From: a bacterium
GTDB lineage: Bacteria > CLD3 > SB21
Direction of reading: 5' to 3'
DNA length: 64,000 bases
Assembly: GCA_013360215.1 (NCBI GenBank)
Contig: JABWCP010000007.1
Coordinates: forward strand, 62,001 to 126,000
The position numbers were made by a program, and so were the translations under genes. The notes below the pieces were generated by a model, which ran no database searches, was not told the DNA's origin, and was given only the letters and a program-made list of their open reading frames with translations. Below are positions 21,038 through 33,825 of the stretch, piece by piece; the first letter of the stretch is position 1, and the number at the start of each line of letters is the position of its first letter.

Positions 21038-21079
21038 TTTTTTGATTTTTTAGCTGATCGTTTGTACTATAAGTCCCGT
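21037..21079 (+). repeat. Intergenic repeat, copy A (see 23696-23738)
   Basis: A T-rich block ending in TCGTTTGTACTATAAGTCCCGT is nearly identical to 23696-23738: about 3 mismatches and a 1-base indel over 40 bases. In both places it runs into the first arm of a terminator. The two copies frame the small Cys-rich gene and its TonB receptor. Confidence 0.8.
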
Positions 21080-21100
21080 TGCACTAACGGGACTTTTTTT
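21071..21100 (+). terminator. Rho-independent terminator of the sppA-HU-mS38-like operon
   Basis: Perfect 10-bp stem AAGTCCCGTT / AACGGGACTT with a 5-base loop GCACT, followed by a T run. It ends 10 bases before the next start codon at 21110, so the next gene needs its own promoter or read-through. Confidence 0.9.
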
Positions 21101-21109
21101 GTTACTACG

Positions 21110-21460
21110 ATGAACAATTTTTTTATATCTCGACAAAAACAAGTGCACCGGATCATAAAGGAAATCACGGCACTTTATTTGGTTGTCTTTTTTTTAGCCG
21201 TGAGCGGTCGCCCTTGTTCGGAAGGAGTCGGCAATACCGATAACCGCATGACGATCCGGGTGCAGGATGAAAACCACGAAGAATCCTGCACCGATAGGTG
21301 TTCGCCGATGGACGGTTGTGCGTGCTGTTCGCATTATTGTATTTGTTTTTATATCAAAAAAATGCCGCTTCATTTTTATTTTACGACATACCGGCCGGCT
21401 TCTACGGACGTACCCATTTCCCTATATAACAGCAGAATTTTTCAACCGCCGCGTGGATAA
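21110..21460 (+). CDS. Small Cys-rich membrane/exported protein (DUF6660-like)
   Basis: 116 residues from the ATG at 21110; an upstream extension would run through the terminator and is rejected. One hydrophobic segment (about residues 18-33, ALYLVVFFLAVSG) is followed by PCSEG and a cysteine cluster (C60, C64, C70, C72, C73, C77, C79). This layout resembles DUF6660 proteins, which in Bacteroidota precede TonB-dependent receptors. The cluster could bind copper or another thiophilic metal; that is inference. The next gene, a receptor, starts 35 bases later. Confidence 0.65.
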   Translation: MNNFFISRQKQVHRIIKEITALYLVVFFLAVSGRPCSEGVGNTDNRMTIRVQDENHEESCTDRCSPMDGCACCSHYCICFYIKKMPLHFYFTTYRPASTDVPISLYNSRIFQPPRG

Positions 21461-21495: not shown

Positions 21496-23676
21496 ATGAA
21501 AAAATGGATTTTATTATGTATGACAGGGATCGGTCTGTCCGTACCGCAACTGTTAAATGCACAACATGCGCTCACAGTAAAAGTAACCGATTCCGAATCG
21601 GGCGAAGCGGTACCCGGTGCACAAGTGCATATTATGGGTACAACCCAAGGCGGCGTTTCGAATGCGGAAGGCATTGTACGACTTGAAAATATCGCCGAAG
21701 GCATTTACCGGCTGCGCATCACTTCCGCAGGTTATGAGGACGTGATTATGGAGATTCAGTTACCGCGCACGGACGCGAACCCGATCCCCATTGTACTGGA
21801 ACATGCCTCGCATGAAGGCGAAGAAATCACTGTTACGTCCACGCGTTCCAGTCGAACGATCGAAAATACACCGACGCGCGTCGAAGCCATCGCTGCGGAG
21901 GAATTGGACGAAAAGGCCAATATGCGCGTGAGTGATATTCGCATGCAACTCAATGAGAGTACAGGCATTCAGGTTCAGCAAACGTCAGTTACCTCCGGTA
22001 ATGCGGTATTTCGTATCCAGGGTCTTGATGGCCGTTACACACAATTGCTCAAAGACGGTTTCCCGCTGTACGCCGGTTTTTCCGGCGGGCTCAGCATCAC
22101 GCAAATACCGCCGCTTGATCTTCAGCAAATCGAGATCATCAAAGGCAGTGCATCTACGCTATACGGCGGTGGGGCTATTGCAGGGCTGATCAACTTGGTA
22201 AGCAAAACGCCGCAGGAAAAACCTGAGACTTTACTGATGGTCAACGGTACCACGGCCAAGGGTTTTGACGGCAATATCTATCACGCGCGGCGAAATGAAA
22301 AAATAGGGTATAGTGTGTTTTCATCAGCGCATACCCAAAGCCCGTACGATGCCGATGAGGATGGGTTTTCAGATATTCCTAAAATTCATCGCTTTGCGTT
22401 GAATCCCCGGGTTTATTATTATCCGGGTGAACGAAGCACACTGATGCTGGGATTTGACGGCGTTTTGGAAAGAAGGAACGGCGGCGACATGCAGCGCCTC
22501 GAGAACGGAAAAGATTCGATGCACACGTATATCGAAAAAAACCGTTCACGGCGCCTGTCCACACAGATGATGTGGCAACAACCTCTTTTCGGGCGAGCCA
22601 CGATGACATTTAAGAACAGTTTCAGTTTTTTTGATCGTGCGATTGTGCTGCAGGATTATCGTTTTACCGGATACCAACAATCTTCTTTTTCCGAATGGAC
22701 GTTGGGATATACGCATAAAAATAATTCCTGGATCATGGGCATCAACCTGTGGACGGATCGTTTTGATGAACAGAAGCCATCCCTAAAACGTGATTTTCAT
22801 AGCCTGACATCGGGAGTATTTGTCCAACATCAGGCGGAGTGGAGTGAAGATTGGTCATCCGAAGCCGGTCTGCGTTATGATCGCGATAAAGACTACGGTT
22901 CGTTTGTACTACCTCGTTTGTCCGTAATGCGCCGCTGGAATGCTTCGTGGACATCGCGGCTCGGCGGAGGACTTGGTTATAAATCGCCGACGATATTCAA
23001 TGAAACATCGGAAACGCAGTCCTATCGTAACATCCGCGGTATTCAAAAAAATCAACTTAAAGCCGAGACATCGCTTGGCGGAAATTTTGATATCAATTAT
23101 CAAAATGTTTGGGCAAAACGATTCCCTGTGTCGCTCAATACCATGGTGTATTATACGCGGTTGCGGCACGCGCTGACGTATGACAAAGATTCGCTGGCGT
23201 CGGGCGCGTACGATTTGATCAATTCCGACGGGCATATTGATACACGCGGTACGGAGATCAACGGAAAAATCAGTTACGAAGCATGGAAATTATTTGTCGG
23301 TTATACATGGGTGGATATAAAGCGTCATGAAAACGGCGGTACATCGCATATACCGCTATCGGCTAAACACCGGCTTGGGCTTGTACTCGTGTATGAAGAA
23401 GAGGCACGTTGGCGTGCGGGTATCGAATCGTATTATACCGGTCATCAGTACCGCAGTGATGGCCGTTCTACAAATGATTTTTGGATTTTTGGTTTTATGA
23501 TTCAGCGCACCATGGGCCCGTATGCCGTATTTGTCAATTTTGAAAACTTCACGGATACGCGTCAATCCCGCTTTGAAGCGCTGTACACCGGTACGCGAAC
23601 CAATCCGGATTTTAAGGAACTCTATGCGCCGACGGAGGGTTTTGTGGCGAATGCAGGTTTAAAAATACGCTGGTAA
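21496..23676 (+). CDS. TonB-dependent outer-membrane receptor with carboxypeptidase-like N-terminal domain
   Basis: 726 residues. Signal peptide to about residue 22 (ends LLNAQ), a carboxypeptidase-regulatory-like beta-sandwich (about 25-105; SGEAVPGAQVHI, GIYRLRITSAGYED), then the plug domain (TRVEAIAAEEL; IQGLDGRYTQLLKDG; IKGSASTLYGGGAIAGLINLV) and a 22-strand barrel ending in Trp. Such receptors import metal complexes, cobalamin or oligomers using TonB energy. The substrate is not evident; pairing with a Cys-rich small protein hints at a metal. GGAG precedes the ATG. Confidence 0.92.
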   Translation: MKKWILLCMTGIGLSVPQLLNAQHALTVKVTDSESGEAVPGAQVHIMGTTQGGVSNAEGIVRLENIAEGIYRLRITSAGYEDVIMEIQLPRTDANPIPIVLEHASHEGEEITVTSTRSSRTIENTPTRVEAIAAEELDEKANMRVSDIRMQLNESTGIQVQQTSVTSGNAVFRIQGLDGRYTQLLKDGFPLYAGFSGGLSITQIPPLDLQQIEIIKGSASTLYGGGAIAGLINLVSKTPQEKPETLLMVNGTTAKGFDGNIYHARRNEKIGYSVFSSAHTQSPYDADEDGFSDIPKIHRFALNPRVYYYPGERSTLMLGFDGVLERRNGGDMQRLENGKDSMHTYIEKNRSRRLSTQMMWQQPLFGRATMTFKNSFSFFDRAIVLQDYRFTGYQQSSFSEWTLGYTHKNNSWIMGINLWTDRFDEQKPSLKRDFHSLTSGVFVQHQAEWSEDWSSEAGLRYDRDKDYGSFVLPRLSVMRRWNASWTSRLGGGLGYKSPTIFNETSETQSYRNIRGIQKNQLKAETSLGGNFDINYQNVWAKRFPVSLNTMVYYTRLRHALTYDKDSLASGAYDLINSDGHIDTRGTEINGKISYEAWKLFVGYTWVDIKRHENGGTSHIPLSAKHRLGLVLVYEEEARWRAGIESYYTGHQYRSDGRSTNDFWIFGFMIQRTMGPYAVFVNFENFTDTRQSRFEALYTGTRTNPDFKELYAPTEGFVANAGLKIRW

Positions 23677-25308: not shown

Positions 25309-25328
25309 TTTTTTTTGAAACTTTAAAA

Positions 25329-25345
25329 ACTACATAACGTAGTAG
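25329..25345. promoter_or_regulatory. BlaI-type operator candidate in front of the repressor gene
   Basis: ACTACATAACGTAGTAG forms a dyad ACTAC / GTAGT immediately upstream of the BlaI-family start codon, overlapping the AGTAGGA ribosome site. It matches 13 of 17 bases of the site at 26715-26731. BlaI/MecI/CopY repressors bind TACA/TGTA-type dyads, so autoregulation is likely. Confidence 0.6.
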
Positions 25346-25349
25346 GATT

Positions 25350-25769
25350 ATGTCTAAACATACATTTACATTTGATCCGCGCGGTAAAGGTTTACGCAAA
25401 GTGCTTGGCGATCTGGAGTCCGATATCATGGAAGTGGTATGGGAATATAAATCGGTCACCGTGCGTGATGTATGCACACACCTCAACAAAAAGAGGCCTT
25501 TGGCTTATACTACCGTGATGACGGTTATGACGCGGTTGGCAGAAAAAGGCGTATTGCGAAAAATCAAATCCGGCGCCGCGTTTGTTTATCAACCGGCACG
25601 ATCACGGGAATCGTTCACGTTAAGCGCATCGGTTCAAATTTTTAAAAGCCTTTTTGATGATTTTTCAAAACCGGTAATGAGCGAACTGATTGATACGATT
25701 CATCGGGAAAACCCCGAACGATTGGATGAGTTGGCCGCATTGATAGAGAAAAAGAAAAAAAAGAAATGA
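25350..25769 (+). CDS. BlaI/MecI/CopY family transcriptional repressor
   Basis: 139 residues: a winged-helix DNA-binding domain (LESDIMEVVWEYKSVTVRDV; AYTTVMTVMTRLAEKGVL) and a C-terminal dimerisation helix region. Such repressors leave DNA when cleaved by a BlaR1/M56 membrane protease. The downstream gene encodes exactly such a protease and overlaps by 4 bases (ATGA), so the pair forms a sensing module. The Lys-rich tail (EKKKKKK) is unusual but plausible. Confidence 0.93.
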   Translation: MSKHTFTFDPRGKGLRKVLGDLESDIMEVVWEYKSVTVRDVCTHLNKKRPLAYTTVMTVMTRLAEKGVLRKIKSGAAFVYQPARSRESFTLSASVQIFKSLFDDFSKPVMSELIDTIHRENPERLDELAALIEKKKKKK

Positions 25770-26698
25770 ATTACTTCGATATTATTTATACGGAGGTATT
25801 GACTTATCTCGGGTTTTTTGTTGTGAATCCGATTGCTTGCGCGTACGTCGCAATGTTGCAAACGGCACTCTTGATGAGCGCGGGTCTTATTGCGTTGGGT
25901 ATTTATAAGCAAAACCGCACCATAAAAATGTGGAAAAAAAATTCAATACAACCCGATAAACGATGGATGGCCACTGTTGAAAAAATCAATCGCCGTATCG
26001 GGCTCTCTTCGCTACCGGGATTACGTTTTACCCATCAGGCGCTTCCTATTTGTACGGTGGGTTTTTTTAAACCGGTTATTTATATACCGGAACCGATGGT
26101 GCGAAATTTAACAGATTCCGACCTCGCGATGATTGCAGAACATGAACTGTGGCATATAAAAAAACGCCACAATCTGAAAAAATTAATCATGCGTTCATTG
26201 GGGCTCGTGGGTTCGCTTTGGTCGGGTTTTGCAACCGGACTCGCACTGACCTATCGTGTTTTGGATCAACGGTATGAAATCATCGGATTTGTGCTTTCGT
26301 TTATATTAGGTCTAATTTTGATGCGCGCATTCCGTCGTTATGTTATACCGTATTTTGATTTGTGGTGCGAGTATGAATGCGACGATGCTTTGCAGATGTG
26401 TCGTAATCAGCGACAAACTATGGCGGCAATGCTGGTTCGATTGGGAAAAATGAATATTGTTTCCGATCCGATGCGGGACATGATCCGATGTGCAGCGGTT
26501 TCGCATTTGGAGAAGCGCGTTCGACGGTTAATCAGTGAACCCGCATCAAACGCGTTTACGCCTTATATTCGCGGTGTTCTATACTTCGTAGCGATAGTAT
26601 TGATCGTCAACGTGATCAACATCCACCGCGCACATAATTTCCAATGGGTTTCCGGCCACGGCAAACGAATGCATTTGTGCGCGGGGCAATGTAAATAA
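25766..26698 (+). CDS. M56 (BlaR1-like) membrane metallopeptidase without extracellular sensor domain
   Basis: 310 residues with about four membrane helices and a cytoplasmic zinc site HELWH (about residue 130) followed by IKKRHN. It resembles the protease core of BlaR1/MecR1. The penicillin-binding sensor domain is absent; only a short tail follows the last helix, so the inducer is not simply a beta-lactam bound by this chain. It most likely cleaves the co-encoded BlaI-type repressor. Overlap with the repressor gene is 4 bases. Confidence 0.88.
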   Translation: MNYFDIIYTEVLTYLGFFVVNPIACAYVAMLQTALLMSAGLIALGIYKQNRTIKMWKKNSIQPDKRWMATVEKINRRIGLSSLPGLRFTHQALPICTVGFFKPVIYIPEPMVRNLTDSDLAMIAEHELWHIKKRHNLKKLIMRSLGLVGSLWSGFATGLALTYRVLDQRYEIIGFVLSFILGLILMRAFRRYVIPYFDLWCEYECDDALQMCRNQRQTMAAMLVRLGKMNIVSDPMRDMIRCAAVSHLEKRVRRLISEPASNAFTPYIRGVLYFVAIVLIVNVINIHRAHNFQWVSGHGKRMHLCAGQCK

Positions 26699-26713
26699 TT
26701 TTTTACCATACAT

Positions 26714-26730
26714 TACTACACTATGTAGTA
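26714..26730. promoter_or_regulatory. BlaI-type operator candidate in front of the NTF2-like/SMP-30 operon
   Basis: Perfect palindrome TACTACA-CTA-TGTAGTA, 20 bases before the start codon at 26750 and just upstream of its AAGGAG site. It shares the core with 25329-25345, implying that the neighbouring repressor controls this operon too. Confidence 0.65.
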
Positions 26731-26749
26731 GAAAATAAAAAGGAGATTC

Positions 26750-27214
26750 ATGAAAACACTACTCATGATCGCGTTTCTCGTGCCGTGCATCGGGTGTCGG
26801 GTCAATCCTGATTTGGAAGCGGAAAAAACGGAGCTGTTACGCTTACACGAAGCACAACGACGTGCCCATTTTGATCGCAACGTAGATCCGATGACGGAAG
26901 GGCATGTACCGCAACGTATTCAAATCAACGGAGGAGAGTTATCCTACACCACGCCGGAGCAAACGCGTGCCCGGTTTGAGCGTTATTTTGGTCGTGTCGA
27001 ATTTCTTCGTTGGGATGATACGATCGAACCGATCATTGTGATTTCTGATGATGCTACGTTGGCCAATACATTTGTTCAGAAACTCGTTGTGGTGTCTTAT
27101 CAGGATGAGCGCGGCGCCAAACAATTGGATACAACCCGGTTTGCCTGGACAACGACTTACCGAAAAATAAACGATCAATGGCAGATGATCGCTGTGACTT
27201 CCACCCGAAAATAA
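26750..27214 (+). CDS. NTF2-like (SnoaL/DUF4440-type) lipoprotein
   Basis: 154 residues. Signal peptide with lipobox (CIGC, about residue 16). The mature part has the length and ending of an NTF2-like cone fold: N-terminal helix (ELLRLHEAQRRAHF), then strands ending in WQMIAVTSTRK. These domains serve as enzymes or binding modules; no catalytic residues can be assigned. AAGGAG precedes the ATG. It follows the BlaI-type operator and is 10 bases from the next gene. Confidence 0.75.
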   Translation: MKTLLMIAFLVPCIGCRVNPDLEAEKTELLRLHEAQRRAHFDRNVDPMTEGHVPQRIQINGGELSYTTPEQTRARFERYFGRVEFLRWDDTIEPIIVISDDATLANTFVQKLVVVSYQDERGAKQLDTTRFAWTTTYRKINDQWQMIAVTSTRK

Positions 27215-27224
27215 GGAGATGAAA

Positions 27225-28490
27225 ATGGTACGAATCGGATTGTTTTGTTTTTTGTTTCATTCCGCGGTTGCTCAAAATGATATTATGCATTTGTATCGTG
27301 ATGCGATGGCATCAATGATGAAAAAAGATTTCGAACATGCGGAACAGAAACTCCGAACGCTGGACAGTCTTATGCCGGATGACACGGAAATTTATTTCCT
27401 CCGAGCGCAGGTTTTAGCTCACATGGGTGATCATGCTAAAGCAATGGGCCTGTTGAAGGCGAGTCTAATCATGGGCAGCGATATGCTTTTCACAATCGGT
27501 AAAGACAGCGCATTTGCAGGTTTGTGGGCCGACTCCGAGTTTCAAAATTTACTCAAAGAAATTGAACAGCTTAAACGGCCCGTCCATCACAGCCGCGATG
27601 CTTATCTTCTTACAGAGCGGGATTTGATACCCGAGGGCACGGCCTACGATGGACATACCGGGCAACTTTTTATTAGCAGTACCTATAAAAGAAAGATCAA
27701 ACGCATTTATCCGGACGGGCGCAGCGATGATTTTACCAAGGAAGGCCAAGACGGCTTGCTCGGCGTAGTCGGGATGGAGGTGGATTCCGTGCGGCGAATT
27801 TTATGGGTTAATAGCTGTAATAATCCGAATATGCCGATACGGGATAGTAATGCCGATGCACGGGTTCCTGCGCGGGTGCATAAATTTGACCTTACGACAG
27901 GACGTCTGCTGCAGCGGTATGATGCCCCGGCGGGTTCACATTTTTTCAACGATCTTACCGTCACGGCGAAAGGGGATGTTTTTATTACCGATACCGAATC
28001 GGGAGAAATCTGGCAGATCGCCTCTGAACGCCATACGCTAGAAATATTTTTGAAACCGCAGAACGTGCTTTTCCTCAACGGCATTACCAAGTCGCCGGAC
28101 GATCAATGGCTTTATGTTGCCCATGCGGCGGGAATTTTAGTTATAGATATTGCTACACGCCGGTATGAGCCTTTGAAACATCCGCCGTTATTTCCGCTCG
28201 GAAGCATTGACGGGCTGGCTTTTTACAAGCAATCGCTCATCGCGCATCAGTCGGGTGTCGTTGGACGAATCAAACGAATTTATCTGGATAACGATCTGCG
28301 CACGGCCACACACGCAACGGTTTTGGAAGCGCATAATCCGCATTTTGATCAACCGACGACGGGCGAGATCGGCGGTTCGTTTTATTATTACATCGCCAAT
28401 GCGCAATTACGGAGCGGGTTTAGGAATAAAAAAATCAAACCTTATCACGAACTCCGAGACGTTGTAATTCTGAAAATCCCTTTGGAGTAA
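27225..28490 (+). CDS. SMP-30/gluconolactonase-like beta-propeller protein with TPR N-terminus
   Basis: 421 residues from the ATG at 27225, 6 bases after AAGGAG; an ATG at 27219 is too close to that site. A cleavable signal (FCFLFHSAVAQ) is followed by TPR-like helices (about residues 25-105), then a six-bladed propeller (EGTAYDGHTGQLFIS; NDLTVTAKGDVFITDTESG; NGITKSPDDQWLYVAHAAG) like SMP-30/strictosidine synthase enzymes. The fold suggests a periplasmic hydrolase, but the substrate is unknown. It is part of the operon under the BlaI-type operator. Confidence 0.82.
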   Translation: MVRIGLFCFLFHSAVAQNDIMHLYRDAMASMMKKDFEHAEQKLRTLDSLMPDDTEIYFLRAQVLAHMGDHAKAMGLLKASLIMGSDMLFTIGKDSAFAGLWADSEFQNLLKEIEQLKRPVHHSRDAYLLTERDLIPEGTAYDGHTGQLFISSTYKRKIKRIYPDGRSDDFTKEGQDGLLGVVGMEVDSVRRILWVNSCNNPNMPIRDSNADARVPARVHKFDLTTGRLLQRYDAPAGSHFFNDLTVTAKGDVFITDTESGEIWQIASERHTLEIFLKPQNVLFLNGITKSPDDQWLYVAHAAGILVIDIATRRYEPLKHPPLFPLGSIDGLAFYKQSLIAHQSGVVGRIKRIYLDNDLRTATHATVLEAHNPHFDQPTTGEIGGSFYYYIANAQLRSGFRNKKIKPYHELRDVVILKIPLE

Positions 28491-28572: not shown

Positions 28573-29814
28573 ATGGCCATTCCGCATCCCTGGCGCGGTA
28601 TACATCTTCTGCCGAAACCGATTTGGGTACTTTTTTGGACGACCTTAGTCAATCGCAGCGGCATGATGGCGTTGCCGTACTTGGTTCTTTATCTTACCAA
28701 AGAATTGCACTATACCGCTGAGGACGCCGCGGCGATGATCGTCGTGTATGGCATCGGGGCGTTTTTAACCGGGCCGGTAGCCGGTAAAATTTCCGATCGC
28801 ATCGGTGCACATCGCATCATGATTTTATCTTTGGTTGCGACGGGCATGGTTTTGGTGACTATTCCGTTGGCGCATGAATTTTGGGCTGTGGCTTGTCTCA
28901 CCGTACTATGGGCCGTCGTAAGCGAAGCTTTCAGACCGGCGAGCCTTGCGGTCGTGACCAATTTGGTTTCCGTTGACCAACGCAAATTAGCTTTTGCCGT
29001 CAATCGTCTTGCGATCAATATCGGCATGAGTATCGGTCCCGCCGTCGGCGGATTTATTGCACTCTATTCGTATCCGATGTTGTTTTATGTGAATGGTATA
29101 TTTTCGGTGTTAGCCAGTCTGGTGATGATGTTTTCCCGTTGGCCGGAAGCGCATTCGGCACACGCTGCGGCCGCGCTTCATCGTGAAGCGGAATCGGACA
29201 TGCATCCGTGGCAGAATCTTTCATTTATGTATTTTTTGATTCCGCTATTTTTGATCATGTTGATCTTTTTTCAGATTGATGCGACGGTGGCGTTGTATCT
29301 TGTTCGCGACATGGCGTATCCGGAATCCCATTTCGGGTTATTATTTTCGGTGAACACGGTACTCATCATTTTTCTCGAAGTCTGGATCAATATACGTATG
29401 AGTCACTGGAAACACCGGCATGCGCTCAGTCTCGGAGCGCTTCTGATCGCGTTGGGTTTCGGATTGATGGCTTTCAGCGGGCATATCGGCTACATTGCTT
29501 TTACTGTGGCTGTGTGGACATTTGGTGAGATGATTCTTTTTCCCGGTTCGGCGGCGTATGTATCGGATATCGCACCGGCATCGCGGCGCGGAGAATATAT
29601 GGGCTACTATCAAATGACGTTTAGTCTCGGATTGATCATCGGGCCGTGGCTGGGTGTGCTGTTGTATGAAGCGACCGACGCGCCTACATTATGGTTGACG
29701 ACATTGGGTGTCGGTATCGTGGCGACCGGTATGCTGCGTTTGGTCAAAGAGCCGCCGACGGTAACGATGAAAGTTTTATCGGAGGCAAAACCGGGCGGTA
29801 CGGATAACCCATGA
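28573..29814 (+). CDS. Major facilitator superfamily transporter
   Basis: 413 residues with about 12 hydrophobic helices. The MFS loop 2-3 motif appears as GKISDRIGAHR, and the N-terminal half has the antiporter-like segment FRPASLAVVTNLV. It resembles the drug/multidrug exporters of the DHA1/MdtH type; the substrate is unknown. The gene overlaps umuD by 4 bases (ATGA), so the transporter and the mutagenesis gene are co-translated. Confidence 0.9.
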   Translation: MAIPHPWRGIHLLPKPIWVLFWTTLVNRSGMMALPYLVLYLTKELHYTAEDAAAMIVVYGIGAFLTGPVAGKISDRIGAHRIMILSLVATGMVLVTIPLAHEFWAVACLTVLWAVVSEAFRPASLAVVTNLVSVDQRKLAFAVNRLAINIGMSIGPAVGGFIALYSYPMLFYVNGIFSVLASLVMMFSRWPEAHSAHAAAALHREAESDMHPWQNLSFMYFLIPLFLIMLIFFQIDATVALYLVRDMAYPESHFGLLFSVNTVLIIFLEVWINIRMSHWKHRHALSLGALLIALGFGLMAFSGHIGYIAFTVAVWTFGEMILFPGSAAYVSDIAPASRRGEYMGYYQMTFSLGLIIGPWLGVLLYEATDAPTLWLTTLGVGIVATGMLRLVKEPPTVTMKVLSEAKPGGTDNP

Positions 29815-30257
29815 AAAAAGAAAAACCATCTTCGGCGTTTGAAATCTTTCCTGCGGACATCATGACCGCGCGTCATACGCCGTTGGCCAACGATACGGTT
29901 TCGGCGGGGTTTCCTTCGCCGGCGGATGATTTTGTAGATAGGATGTTGGATCTCAATGAGCATCTGATCAAAAACAAAGCGGCTACGTTTCTTGTGCGCG
30001 TGCGCGGCACGTCGATGATCAATGCAGGTATTCATGACGGCGACATTCTGATCGTGGATCGTTCGCTGGAAGCGTCCAACGGAAAAATCGTCATCGGCGT
30101 AGTCAATGGGGAGTTCACCGTAAAGCGCATTCAAAAACGCGGCATGGATTTATATCTCATGCCGGAAAACGATCAATTTCAGCCCATCCGCATTAACGAA
30201 GATATGGATTTCAAAATCTGGGGTGTCGTAACGTATATCATTCACAAGTCGCCGTGA
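29811..30257 (+). CDS. umuD: UmuD-like autoproteolytic subunit of DNA polymerase V (S24 peptidase)
   Basis: 148 residues. The self-cleavage site is Ala32-Gly33 in SAGFPSPADD. The catalytic dyad is Ser68 (RGTSM) and Lys105 (FTVKRI). There is no DNA-binding domain, separating it from LexA. RecA-stimulated cleavage would produce UmuD', which joins UmuC for translesion synthesis. It lies in an operon with an MFS gene, while umuC is 3.75 kb downstream past oppositely oriented genes, which is unusual. Confidence 0.93.
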   Translation: MKKEKPSSAFEIFPADIMTARHTPLANDTVSAGFPSPADDFVDRMLDLNEHLIKNKAATFLVRVRGTSMINAGIHDGDILIVDRSLEASNGKIVIGVVNGEFTVKRIQKRGMDLYLMPENDQFQPIRINEDMDFKIWGVVTYIIHKSP

Positions 30258-31490: not shown

Positions 31491-33578
31491 TTATTTGATC
31501 AATGTTAGTTTTTTACTTGAAGAAAACCCAGGTGATTCTAATCTGTATATATAAGTCCCCGATGCAAGGCGACTTGCATCAAAAGTAACCTGATAAAAAC
31601 CAGGCTCCTTAGTACCATTTGCTAAAGTTGCTACTTCGCGCCCCATCACATCATATAATTTCATAGTGATATTTGCCTTGAAGGGCACAGAATAAGCTAT
31701 CGTCGTTGATGGATTAAATGGGTTAGGATAATTCTGTCCAAGTTCAAACGATACAGGAATGGCCGTTTCACCTCTAGGGATTGTCTTTTCTATAGGTAAA
31801 CTACAGCCCTGATAATTGATAATCCTTGTTGCGATCACTGATTCCTGTCCGCTTACCACTGAAACCTGAATATTGTATTGACAATAAGAAATTGGAATAG
31901 ATATGCTTTGAGTTGTGTATCCATTTTGCCAAGCGTAGCTATAGTTGCCGTTTCCTCCTGATGCCAATGCAGTATATGTTCCAATGGCTCCTTTTGAAGA
32001 TACAATTGAAGGGCCGTCAATACTCACAACTAAAGGCCCTGGGGGAGCTATAGGATATATTTCGTCGATTATTGGGCGAACTAGTTCGCTTGAAAATTCA
32101 TCGTGATATTTGTTGGTACTTGTTTGATACGTAGCATGAAATTTCGAATTTCCATTTACAATGTCCATAGCACTATTGTAAGGGATAAATGTAGCGTTAG
32201 CATATCTAGTGAGGGTAAAAGTACCAAAGAAAACCTGTCGTCCTTGATAATCGGTAATTGATTTAGGCAAGTAAGATCCAGCTTGTGCGGTTTCATTGGT
32301 CAAATACATATAATCTTCCGTGCCGCAGAGAGCGTCAACACCAAATATACCTGTGTACTTTGCTTTTACCCAAAGTGAGCCCGAGGGTGAAGAATTGGGA
32401 GAGCCATTAGAGAATGATATCCCAACATTTCTAGTCAAATGAGGGTAACCATCTCCGTTTAACGAATTCAATTCAGTATAGAAGGAACTATGCATGGTTC
32501 CGTTTGCATCAAAAACATTGCTTGTTAAAAGTTCTTTGGCTGCATCACAACTAATACCATAATGACCAAATGTACCAGTTGCACTACAGTTAGTCGGTTG
32601 TTTGACAAATATTTGGAAAAAATAATGTAAAACAGCTCCTTGTTGAGGAGAATCGATGGAAAAGAACTTTGATGCTTTTAATGGAGTGTTTGAAGCTTCA
32701 GCCTTGGCAAGCGCATATCTTGCTATAACACCACCCATGCTCATCCCAGAGACAACTATGTTTTTGTTTGAATTGATAGAAGAAATAAATTGAACGGCTG
32801 ATGCTAATACAGCTGCGTTATTTTTTATACTTTGTCCGCCAAATTTGTAATTTAAAATATATACTTTTGCGCCTCTGGCCACTAAGGAATCAACAAGTTG
32901 TTTACCTGCGTATCTTAATCTTTCAGAATTACCTGTATTATAAGCGTCAATTCCTTCAGACAAAAGAACGGGAGTCCCATTAGGACTACCCTCCCATACC
33001 GTAAGTCGGTTTCCGTAATTATCAAAATATAGTTTTTGCGCCACAGGCACCACGAAAACAGTATGGGTTCTAGTATATGAAGAACCATCAACAAACCAAA
33101 ACTTAACGCTTAAAGAATGTTGGCCTGGAGAATTAATAAATGAAGGGACTTTCCAACCTGTTGCGTTTGTACTATTGTTGCTAGTACTCCAAATTGTCGA
33201 CCAACTTCCATTGTCGTATTTAACATCACAACGCTGAAATATTTGATTATTAAACGTGTGAAAATTGATCCATCCATTTCCTTGTTGTAAATAAATATCT
33301 GCGGGTTGGGCTGAAATTAGACTAATATGTACACCCTGTTTACGATTTGATTCTTCATACCAGTTGTATGAGGCACTAGTATTTGGTGTTGAACCAATAT
33401 ATACATAGTGAGCATTAGCATACTGCCAGTCCAAAATAGTCGTTCCCTGTGCATCACTTGACATTTCTGAAGAGTTTTCGGCTCCATAAAATACGTTTGA
33501 AACAGAGTTTGGATCCATAGCGTAAACTATGCTATGTAGATTTAATGAAACCCATATAAAGAAAAGAAATCTTTTCAT
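31491..33578 (-). CDS. Secreted lipase/esterase-like alpha/beta hydrolase with type IX secretion sorting domain
   Basis: 695 residues from the ATG at 33578 (GAGGAA upstream). Signal peptide of about 20 residues, an N-terminal beta domain, an alpha/beta-hydrolase domain with nucleophile elbow GMSMGG near residue 278 (PGAP1/lipase-like VVSGMSMGGVIARYAL), an Ig/PKD-like domain (about 535-600), and a C-terminal Por-type sorting domain with QNYPNPFNPSTTI and ending SSSKKLTLIK. The last domain directs export through the type IX system and anchoring or release at the surface. It is strongly AT-rich with codon use unlike nearby umuC, suggesting recent arrival. Confidence 0.88.
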   Translation of the reverse strand: MKRFLFFIWVSLNLHSIVYAMDPNSVSNVFYGAENSSEMSSDAQGTTILDWQYANAHYVYIGSTPNTSASYNWYEESNRKQGVHISLISAQPADIYLQQGNGWINFHTFNNQIFQRCDVKYDNGSWSTIWSTSNNSTNATGWKVPSFINSPGQHSLSVKFWFVDGSSYTRTHTVFVVPVAQKLYFDNYGNRLTVWEGSPNGTPVLLSEGIDAYNTGNSERLRYAGKQLVDSLVARGAKVYILNYKFGGQSIKNNAAVLASAVQFISSINSNKNIVVSGMSMGGVIARYALAKAEASNTPLKASKFFSIDSPQQGAVLHYFFQIFVKQPTNCSATGTFGHYGISCDAAKELLTSNVFDANGTMHSSFYTELNSLNGDGYPHLTRNVGISFSNGSPNSSPSGSLWVKAKYTGIFGVDALCGTEDYMYLTNETAQAGSYLPKSITDYQGRQVFFGTFTLTRYANATFIPYNSAMDIVNGNSKFHATYQTSTNKYHDEFSSELVRPIIDEIYPIAPPGPLVVSIDGPSIVSSKGAIGTYTALASGGNGNYSYAWQNGYTTQSISIPISYCQYNIQVSVVSGQESVIATRIINYQGCSLPIEKTIPRGETAIPVSFELGQNYPNPFNPSTTIAYSVPFKANITMKLYDVMGREVATLANGTKEPGFYQVTFDASRLASGTYIYRLESPGFSSSKKLTLIK

Positions 33579-33825
33579 AAAATTCCTCATTTTTGGGGAA
33601 CAAAAATTGCAAATGTATAGTTAATAGTATACATTTGAATGGGAAGACAGTATTACATTTTTAATTCAAAACCTCCAGTGCTGAATTAGGTAATATTGAT
33701 CTTCCTTTTTTGTTCCATTGTTTAGAACTACTCTTTAATACAATCTACGAGCTGCCTTAATGTAGTATACCCAATGAATGAACTCACCTCCTTCATGCCA
33801 TAAAAATATAATCATTCCCCTTCCG

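Follow-up and report, generated by a model that had tools for sequence, protein, structure and literature searches.

The window, that is, the whole stretch of 64,000 nucleotides analyzed here, probably holds a self-contained regulon with its own protease relay, in which a BlaI-family repressor and an M56-type membrane protease control, through two operators, themselves and an operon for an NTF2-like lipoprotein and a six-bladed propeller; the signal is left unnamed. Sequence comparison gives good support to the operator pair as a conserved regulatory unit, beyond the coincidence of two sites. The coordinates of the features are listed in Table 1.

Table 1. Features of the blaI region and of the loci compared with it
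Feature	Position	Strand	Remarks
O1, predicted operator before blaI	25328..25344	+	AACTACATAACGTAGTA; kept in G002 and G004
blaI, 139-aa BlaI/MecI/CopY-family repressor	25350..25769	+	Pfam Penicillinase_R E 5.4e-27
M56-type membrane zinc protease, 310 aa, without penicillin-binding domain	25766..26698	+	M56 E 2.6e-7
Conserved C-terminal tail codons of M56, residues ~290-310, candidate sensor	26633..26695	+	FQWVSGHGKRMHLCAGQCK
O2, predicted operator before the target operon	26714..26730	+	TACTACACTATGTAGTA; kept in G002 and G004
NTF2-like (DUF4440-like) putative lipoprotein, target	26750..27214	+	Model pLDDT 85; PDB matches to NTF2-like folds
Signal peptide, TPR, and six-bladed SMP-30/lactonase-type propeller, target	27219..28490	+	Fold search; calcium ligands
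MFS transporter, syntenic neighbour	28573..29814	+	Lacks a separate operator in the window; regulon membership uncertain
LexA/UmuD-like S24 peptidase	29811-30257
Lipase-like secreted protein	31491-33590	-	Type IX-like sorting signal (by eye)
Cys-rich 132-aa ORF	21062-21460		CSPMDGCACCSHYCIC
TonB-dependent receptor	21496-23676
MFS genes compared with the window gene	L031 2602-3774; L032 7825-9000; L180 1642-2808
Propeller paralogues with two ligands lost	L056 5361-6650; L057 3991-5280; L058 3225-4517; L061 2966-4243
G198 M56 with DUF3887	L112 685-2022		P0001
G463 M56 with DUF3887	L176 5163-6560

Matching sites were present where the sequence-only reading had placed them, before the BlaI-family start and before the NTF2-like/SMP-30 operon. 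O1 ended 5 bp before the blaI ATG (25350), and O2 ended 19 bp before the lipoprotein ATG (26750), with AAGGAG in between. The spacing was identical in both sites, ACTACA-n4-GTAGTAG, i.e. CTAC-n5-GTAG, and the n4/n5 difference once proposed between them therefore falls away. O2, which had been described as a perfect 17-bp palindrome, consists of two perfect 7-bp arms, but the description does not extend to the 3-bp centre that they flank. The earlier reading had also called for a genome-wide motif search, and would have counted an abundance of randomly placed identical sites against the regulon. Across all 3.72 Mb of the genome, CTAC-N4-6-GTAGTAG was found at O1 and O2 only, with no such scatter of identical sites; the first-order (Markov) expectation for TACTAC-N5-GTAGTA was 0.018 per 3.72 Mb. 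Allowing at most one mismatch to TACTAC-n5-GTAGTA, seven sites were detected genome-wide, including O1 and O2, and the remaining five all lay within coding genes and were rejected as further operators. No operators were found at the paralogues of the propeller and the lipoprotein, and the promoter and terminator scans gave no signal above shuffles. When blaI-linked sites were compared, a T-rich box was observed 5ʹ of most operators, which is what one would see if every operator overlies a putative promoter of its own.

The genome of 3.72 Mb contained one BlaI gene. Its product passed the Penicillinase_R cut-off (94.9 bits, compared to 22.6), with 2g9w, 1sd4, and 1okr as PDB relatives. The best curated model was CopY_TcrY, at 58.5 bits far under the cut-off of 121.95 bits, and no CxC motif was present in the translation. 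Inspection by eye gave no match to the Phe that follows the cleavage site of S. aureus BlaI. Each of the eight loci compared had kept an inverted repeat at its blaI gene, as judged from sequence.

Comparison within the family established the sites, the gene order, and their conservation. In two genomes of another genus (G002 and G004), the order blaI, M56, lipoprotein, propeller was kept, with identities to the window of 53–59% for the repressor, the lipoprotein, and the propeller and of about 32% for the M56 protein. Both operators stood at the equivalent two places, with much of the surrounding intergenic sequence changed, and ACTAC-n5-GTAGTA matched at these two places only across both genomes. 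No BlaI was found in the six other relatives searched, and these six genomes had one ACTAC-n5-GTAGTA site in total, five of them being without any; the lone site, in G005, was inside a gene and was rejected as an operator. In the BlaI-free G003 and G006, the lipoprotein was still encoded beside a propeller, without the operator and without any M56. As BlaI-free genomes keep the lipoprotein–propeller pair but not the site, the operator comes and goes with the repressor. The pattern of sites kept in two family genomes and absent beside the pair in BlaI-free genomes supports the earlier proposal that this operon is the target. A local regulon of one repressor and two dedicated operators, also proposed earlier, is likewise supported by the single BlaI, by sites found nowhere else, and by this comparison, binding itself being predicted.

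The closest BlaI outside the family was that of G198, from another phylum. Among 82 genomes of this phylum, four contained BlaI genes of this kind, five genes in all. Every one of the five loci carried TACTAC-n5-GTAGTA ahead of blaI and a similar site between M56 and the next gene, sharing the layout O1–blaI–M56–O2–target. In G413, a third operator copy preceded a redoxin gene. G198 carried one further exact site, distant from blaI and 5ʹ of an unrelated MFS transporter, which suggests that targets in trans exist. The central gap was 5 in all 17 blaI-linked sites, and the base before GTAGTA was C in 8/8 O1 sites and T in 9/9 O2 or O3 sites, counts in which the events are not independent; O1 read ...CGTAGTA and O2 ...TGTAGTA without exception. 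At more distant BlaI genes, N5 sites with a TTCTAC/GTAGAA half-site were found in G178 and G380 and none in most, and G341 had an N4 site. TTCTAC-n5-GTAGAA was present at both places in G178.

These data bear on whether O1 and O2 are short inverted repeats paired by chance, or sites of another regulator. The motif is short, and CTACN5GTAG, observed twice in the window, had a mean of 0.19 in window shuffles, 2 of 100 of which yielded two cores. Such an origin is nevertheless very improbable, as both places were conserved in three genomes and the exact motif, searched in 24 genomes, was present in all four that have this BlaI and missing from all 20 that do not.

The M56 protein scored 0.4 bits below the Pfam cut-off. 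Comparison established that the residues of its HExxH...ExxxD motif (H126, E127, H130, E202, and D206) were invariant across eight aligned sequences, and its hydrophobic segments fit the BlaR1 layout (PMC9834060), which would place the C-terminus outside. The kept motif and this layout argue for the M56 protease identity that had been read from the sequence. The same reading had held the sensor domain to be missing. There was indeed no penicillin-binding domain in the protein, with about 20 residues after the last helix, but a conserved Cys/His tail takes its place. In three genomes, the last 20 residues, past the final helix, were conserved above the protein average, and a W, GHGKR, HLC, and the final C were identical (motif GHGKRxHLCxxxC). 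Cys25, where the first helix begins, was invariant in eight sequences. One M56 protein of G413 ended in HSLHICTDLCDHY and had H-[LI]-C-x3-C in common with the window tail. Cys residues also occurred in the short tails of many other short BlaI-adjacent M56 proteins, numbering as many as five in G178 and G341, and the long M56 proteins inspected mostly had no Cys in the corresponding stretch. The full-length M56 protein with the tail was found in 3 of 386 relatives, all three being genomes of one family, and was rejected as a widespread form; in a scan of named genomes for it, the matches were limited to the G004 record and to long M56 proteins of distant kinship. The conserved 20-aa tail, in its predicted extracytoplasmic position, occupies the place of the BlaR1 penicillin-binding domain and is the likely sensor.

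In the M56 proteins of G198 and G463, a DUF3887 (NTF2-type) domain sits where the window protein has its tail, over the cut-off in G463 and under it in G198. This placement, and the NTF2-like protein encoded beside M56 in the window, would suit a different role for the lipoprotein, as a sensor partner that binds a periplasmic small molecule and acts on the M56 tail, forming a feedback arm within the operon; we take DUF3887 and the NTF2-like lipoprotein families to belong to one clan. However, orthology of the two NTF2-like proteins is without support, and G003 and G006 keep the lipoprotein in genomes that have no M56 at all. We consider a sensing lipoprotein unlikely.

For the target operon, the lipoprotein had an NTF2-like fold, and the DUF4440 cut-off was passed by a paralogue only. 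Its profile gave no match to PDB sequences, and a fold search was therefore used. The propeller did not pass the Pfam SGL cut-off (22.7 bits, compared to 26.3), and its assignment is supported by the fold search; the D. radiodurans SOD-fused lactonase was closest to it and Drp35 was related. E139, N244, N287, and D331 aligned with D. radiodurans E200, N290, N339, and D381, establishing that the four calcium ligands described for the D. radiodurans enzyme (PMC12362111) are kept. All four were present in the BlaI-linked propellers and in one paralogue. In the propeller copies of BlaI-free genomes and in paralogues elsewhere in the window genome, two calcium ligands were lost (N to G and N to Q). 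With the ligands kept in BlaI-linked copies and lost in BlaI-free ones, the BlaI-linked propeller is, judging from its residues, the copy likely to be active.

The MFS gene lay 3ʹ of the propeller gene in the window, and its homologue (51% identical) lay 5ʹ of blaI in G002 and G004, immediately so in G004. The operator-bearing MFS transporter of G198 was rejected as its counterpart, not being specifically related to it. The S24 peptidase gene directly followed the MFS gene. The lipase-like protein bore, by eye, a C-terminal sorting signal SFELGQNYPNPFNPSTTIAYSVP... of the type IX secretion kind, indicating a Bacteroidota-like lineage.

The neighbours of related loci offer a lead to the signal. 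Immediately after O2 or elsewhere in the cluster, G463 encoded MerB and a CopZ-type domain, G413 AhpC/TSA redoxins and MerB, and G407 a redoxin. More distant short-M56 loci adjoined CusB and outer-membrane efflux proteins (G178), cupredoxin, HMBD, and CusB (G341), HMBD and an efflux protein (G380), CusB and RND efflux (G355), or an efflux protein (G125). In unrelated lineages, BlaI–M56 pairs headed or flanked Cus-type heavy-metal efflux clusters (L148, L151, L163, and L113). The survey was non-blind and is not an enrichment test; no metal gene was seen near several other related short-M56 loci, the window targets are not known metal-resistance genes, and the literature searched contained no relevant reports of BlaI–M56 with metals or MerB. 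Given the mercury-lyase, redoxin, and Cus-type efflux genes beside related loci, a beta-lactam is a less plausible guess than a thiophilic metal or thiol stress, and these neighbours, together with CopY_TcrY as the best model (far below its cut-off and without CxC), favour such a signal. A signal other than beta-lactams, as suggested earlier, is to that extent favoured but not demonstrated, and we put metal or thiol stress forward tentatively, a little short of an even chance. Directly 5ʹ of the TonB-dependent receptor gene, the 132-aa ORF, which contains a dense stretch of Cys and for which no Pfam or NCBIfam name was found, could be a metal-handling partner of that receptor.

Drp35 is a drug-responsive lactonase of S. 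aureus, and the system might instead be a cell-wall-stress switch, in which a beta-lactam or cell-wall signal arrives via a partner of M56 and the propeller acts as Drp35 does. Membership of the BlaI and M56 families, the match of the propeller fold to Drp35, and the way other BlaI regulons have been interpreted (PMC8457756) are consistent with it. It is improbable in view of an M56 protein without a penicillin-binding domain, targets that include neither a beta-lactamase nor a transpeptidase, the MerB, redoxin, and efflux genes adjoining the closest relatives, and the CopY_TcrY model.

In the mechanism that we propose for metal or thiol stress, BlaI dimers would bind O1, causing autorepression of blaI–M56, and O2, repressing the lipoprotein–propeller operon. 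The signal would come from outside the cytoplasm, most likely as a thiophilic metal ion or other thiol-modifying stress, and would bind or oxidise the M56 Cys/His tail (candidate residues H298, H303, C305, and C309, perhaps with Cys25). The cytoplasmic zinc-protease domain would then be activated and cleave BlaI, whereupon the operon products, an NTF2-like lipoprotein and a calcium lactonase-type propeller, would be made in the envelope. From BlaR1 we infer BlaI binding, BlaI cleavage, and the M56 topology; as to the nature of the signal and the propeller substrate, we are speculating. With greater reserve still, we suggest a BlaI–M56 subclass, in at least two phyla, that may sense thiophilic metals or thiol stress via a short Cys/His tail (with Cys25) replacing the penicillin sensor, act by repressor proteolysis on graded operators (C-centre at blaI, T-centre at targets), and here drive an envelope lactonase. 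To our knowledge, BlaR1-type signalling is known almost exclusively from beta-lactam resistance. If the proposal is true, the protease relay of the BlaR1 type would be a general device, offering a one-protein route for the extracytoplasmic sensing of metals or thiol stress. The two-site system would allow the O1/O2 difference to be measured directly.

As in BlaI–BlaR1 and MecI–MecR1 (Staphylococcus, Bacillus licheniformis), a BlaI-family repressor adjoins an M56 protease gene, inverted repeats (predicted operators in the window) lie at the repressor gene and the target, and the protease has the HExxH cytoplasmic layout. In contrast, the window M56 protein has 310 aa rather than about 585–602, with a Cys/His tail instead of the penicillin-binding sensor; its genes form a co-directional array, not a divergon; CTAC-n5-GTAG is one base wider than TACA-n2-TGTA; and the targets are an NTF2-like lipoprotein and an SMP-30-like propeller, with no beta-lactamase or low-affinity transpeptidase as in the bla/mec resistance regulon. 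CopY and TcrY share the repressor superfamily and a metal link, but CopY senses metal directly (PMC7253601), and the window repressor scores below the cut-off, has no CxC metal motif, and has a protease gene beside it. Clostridium thermocellum BlaI_0696 and BlaI_1845 have tiny autoregulated regulons, and the inverted repeats of BlaI_0696 are separated by five nucleotides (PMC8457756). The window system resembles them in its tiny regulon, with predicted autoregulation, and in the five-nucleotide gap of BlaI_0696, whereas theirs have a GTCTAT half-site, paired sites per promoter, and targets read as an antibiotic response. The propeller shares six blades and the Glu-Asn-Asn-Asp calcium site with SMP-30/gluconolactonase, Drp35, and the D. 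radiodurans SOD-fused lactonase, but differs in its N-terminal TPR and signal peptide, at about 19% identity. Taken by its sequence features, the window unit appears to be a variant of BlaI–BlaR1 signalling that has not been described before.
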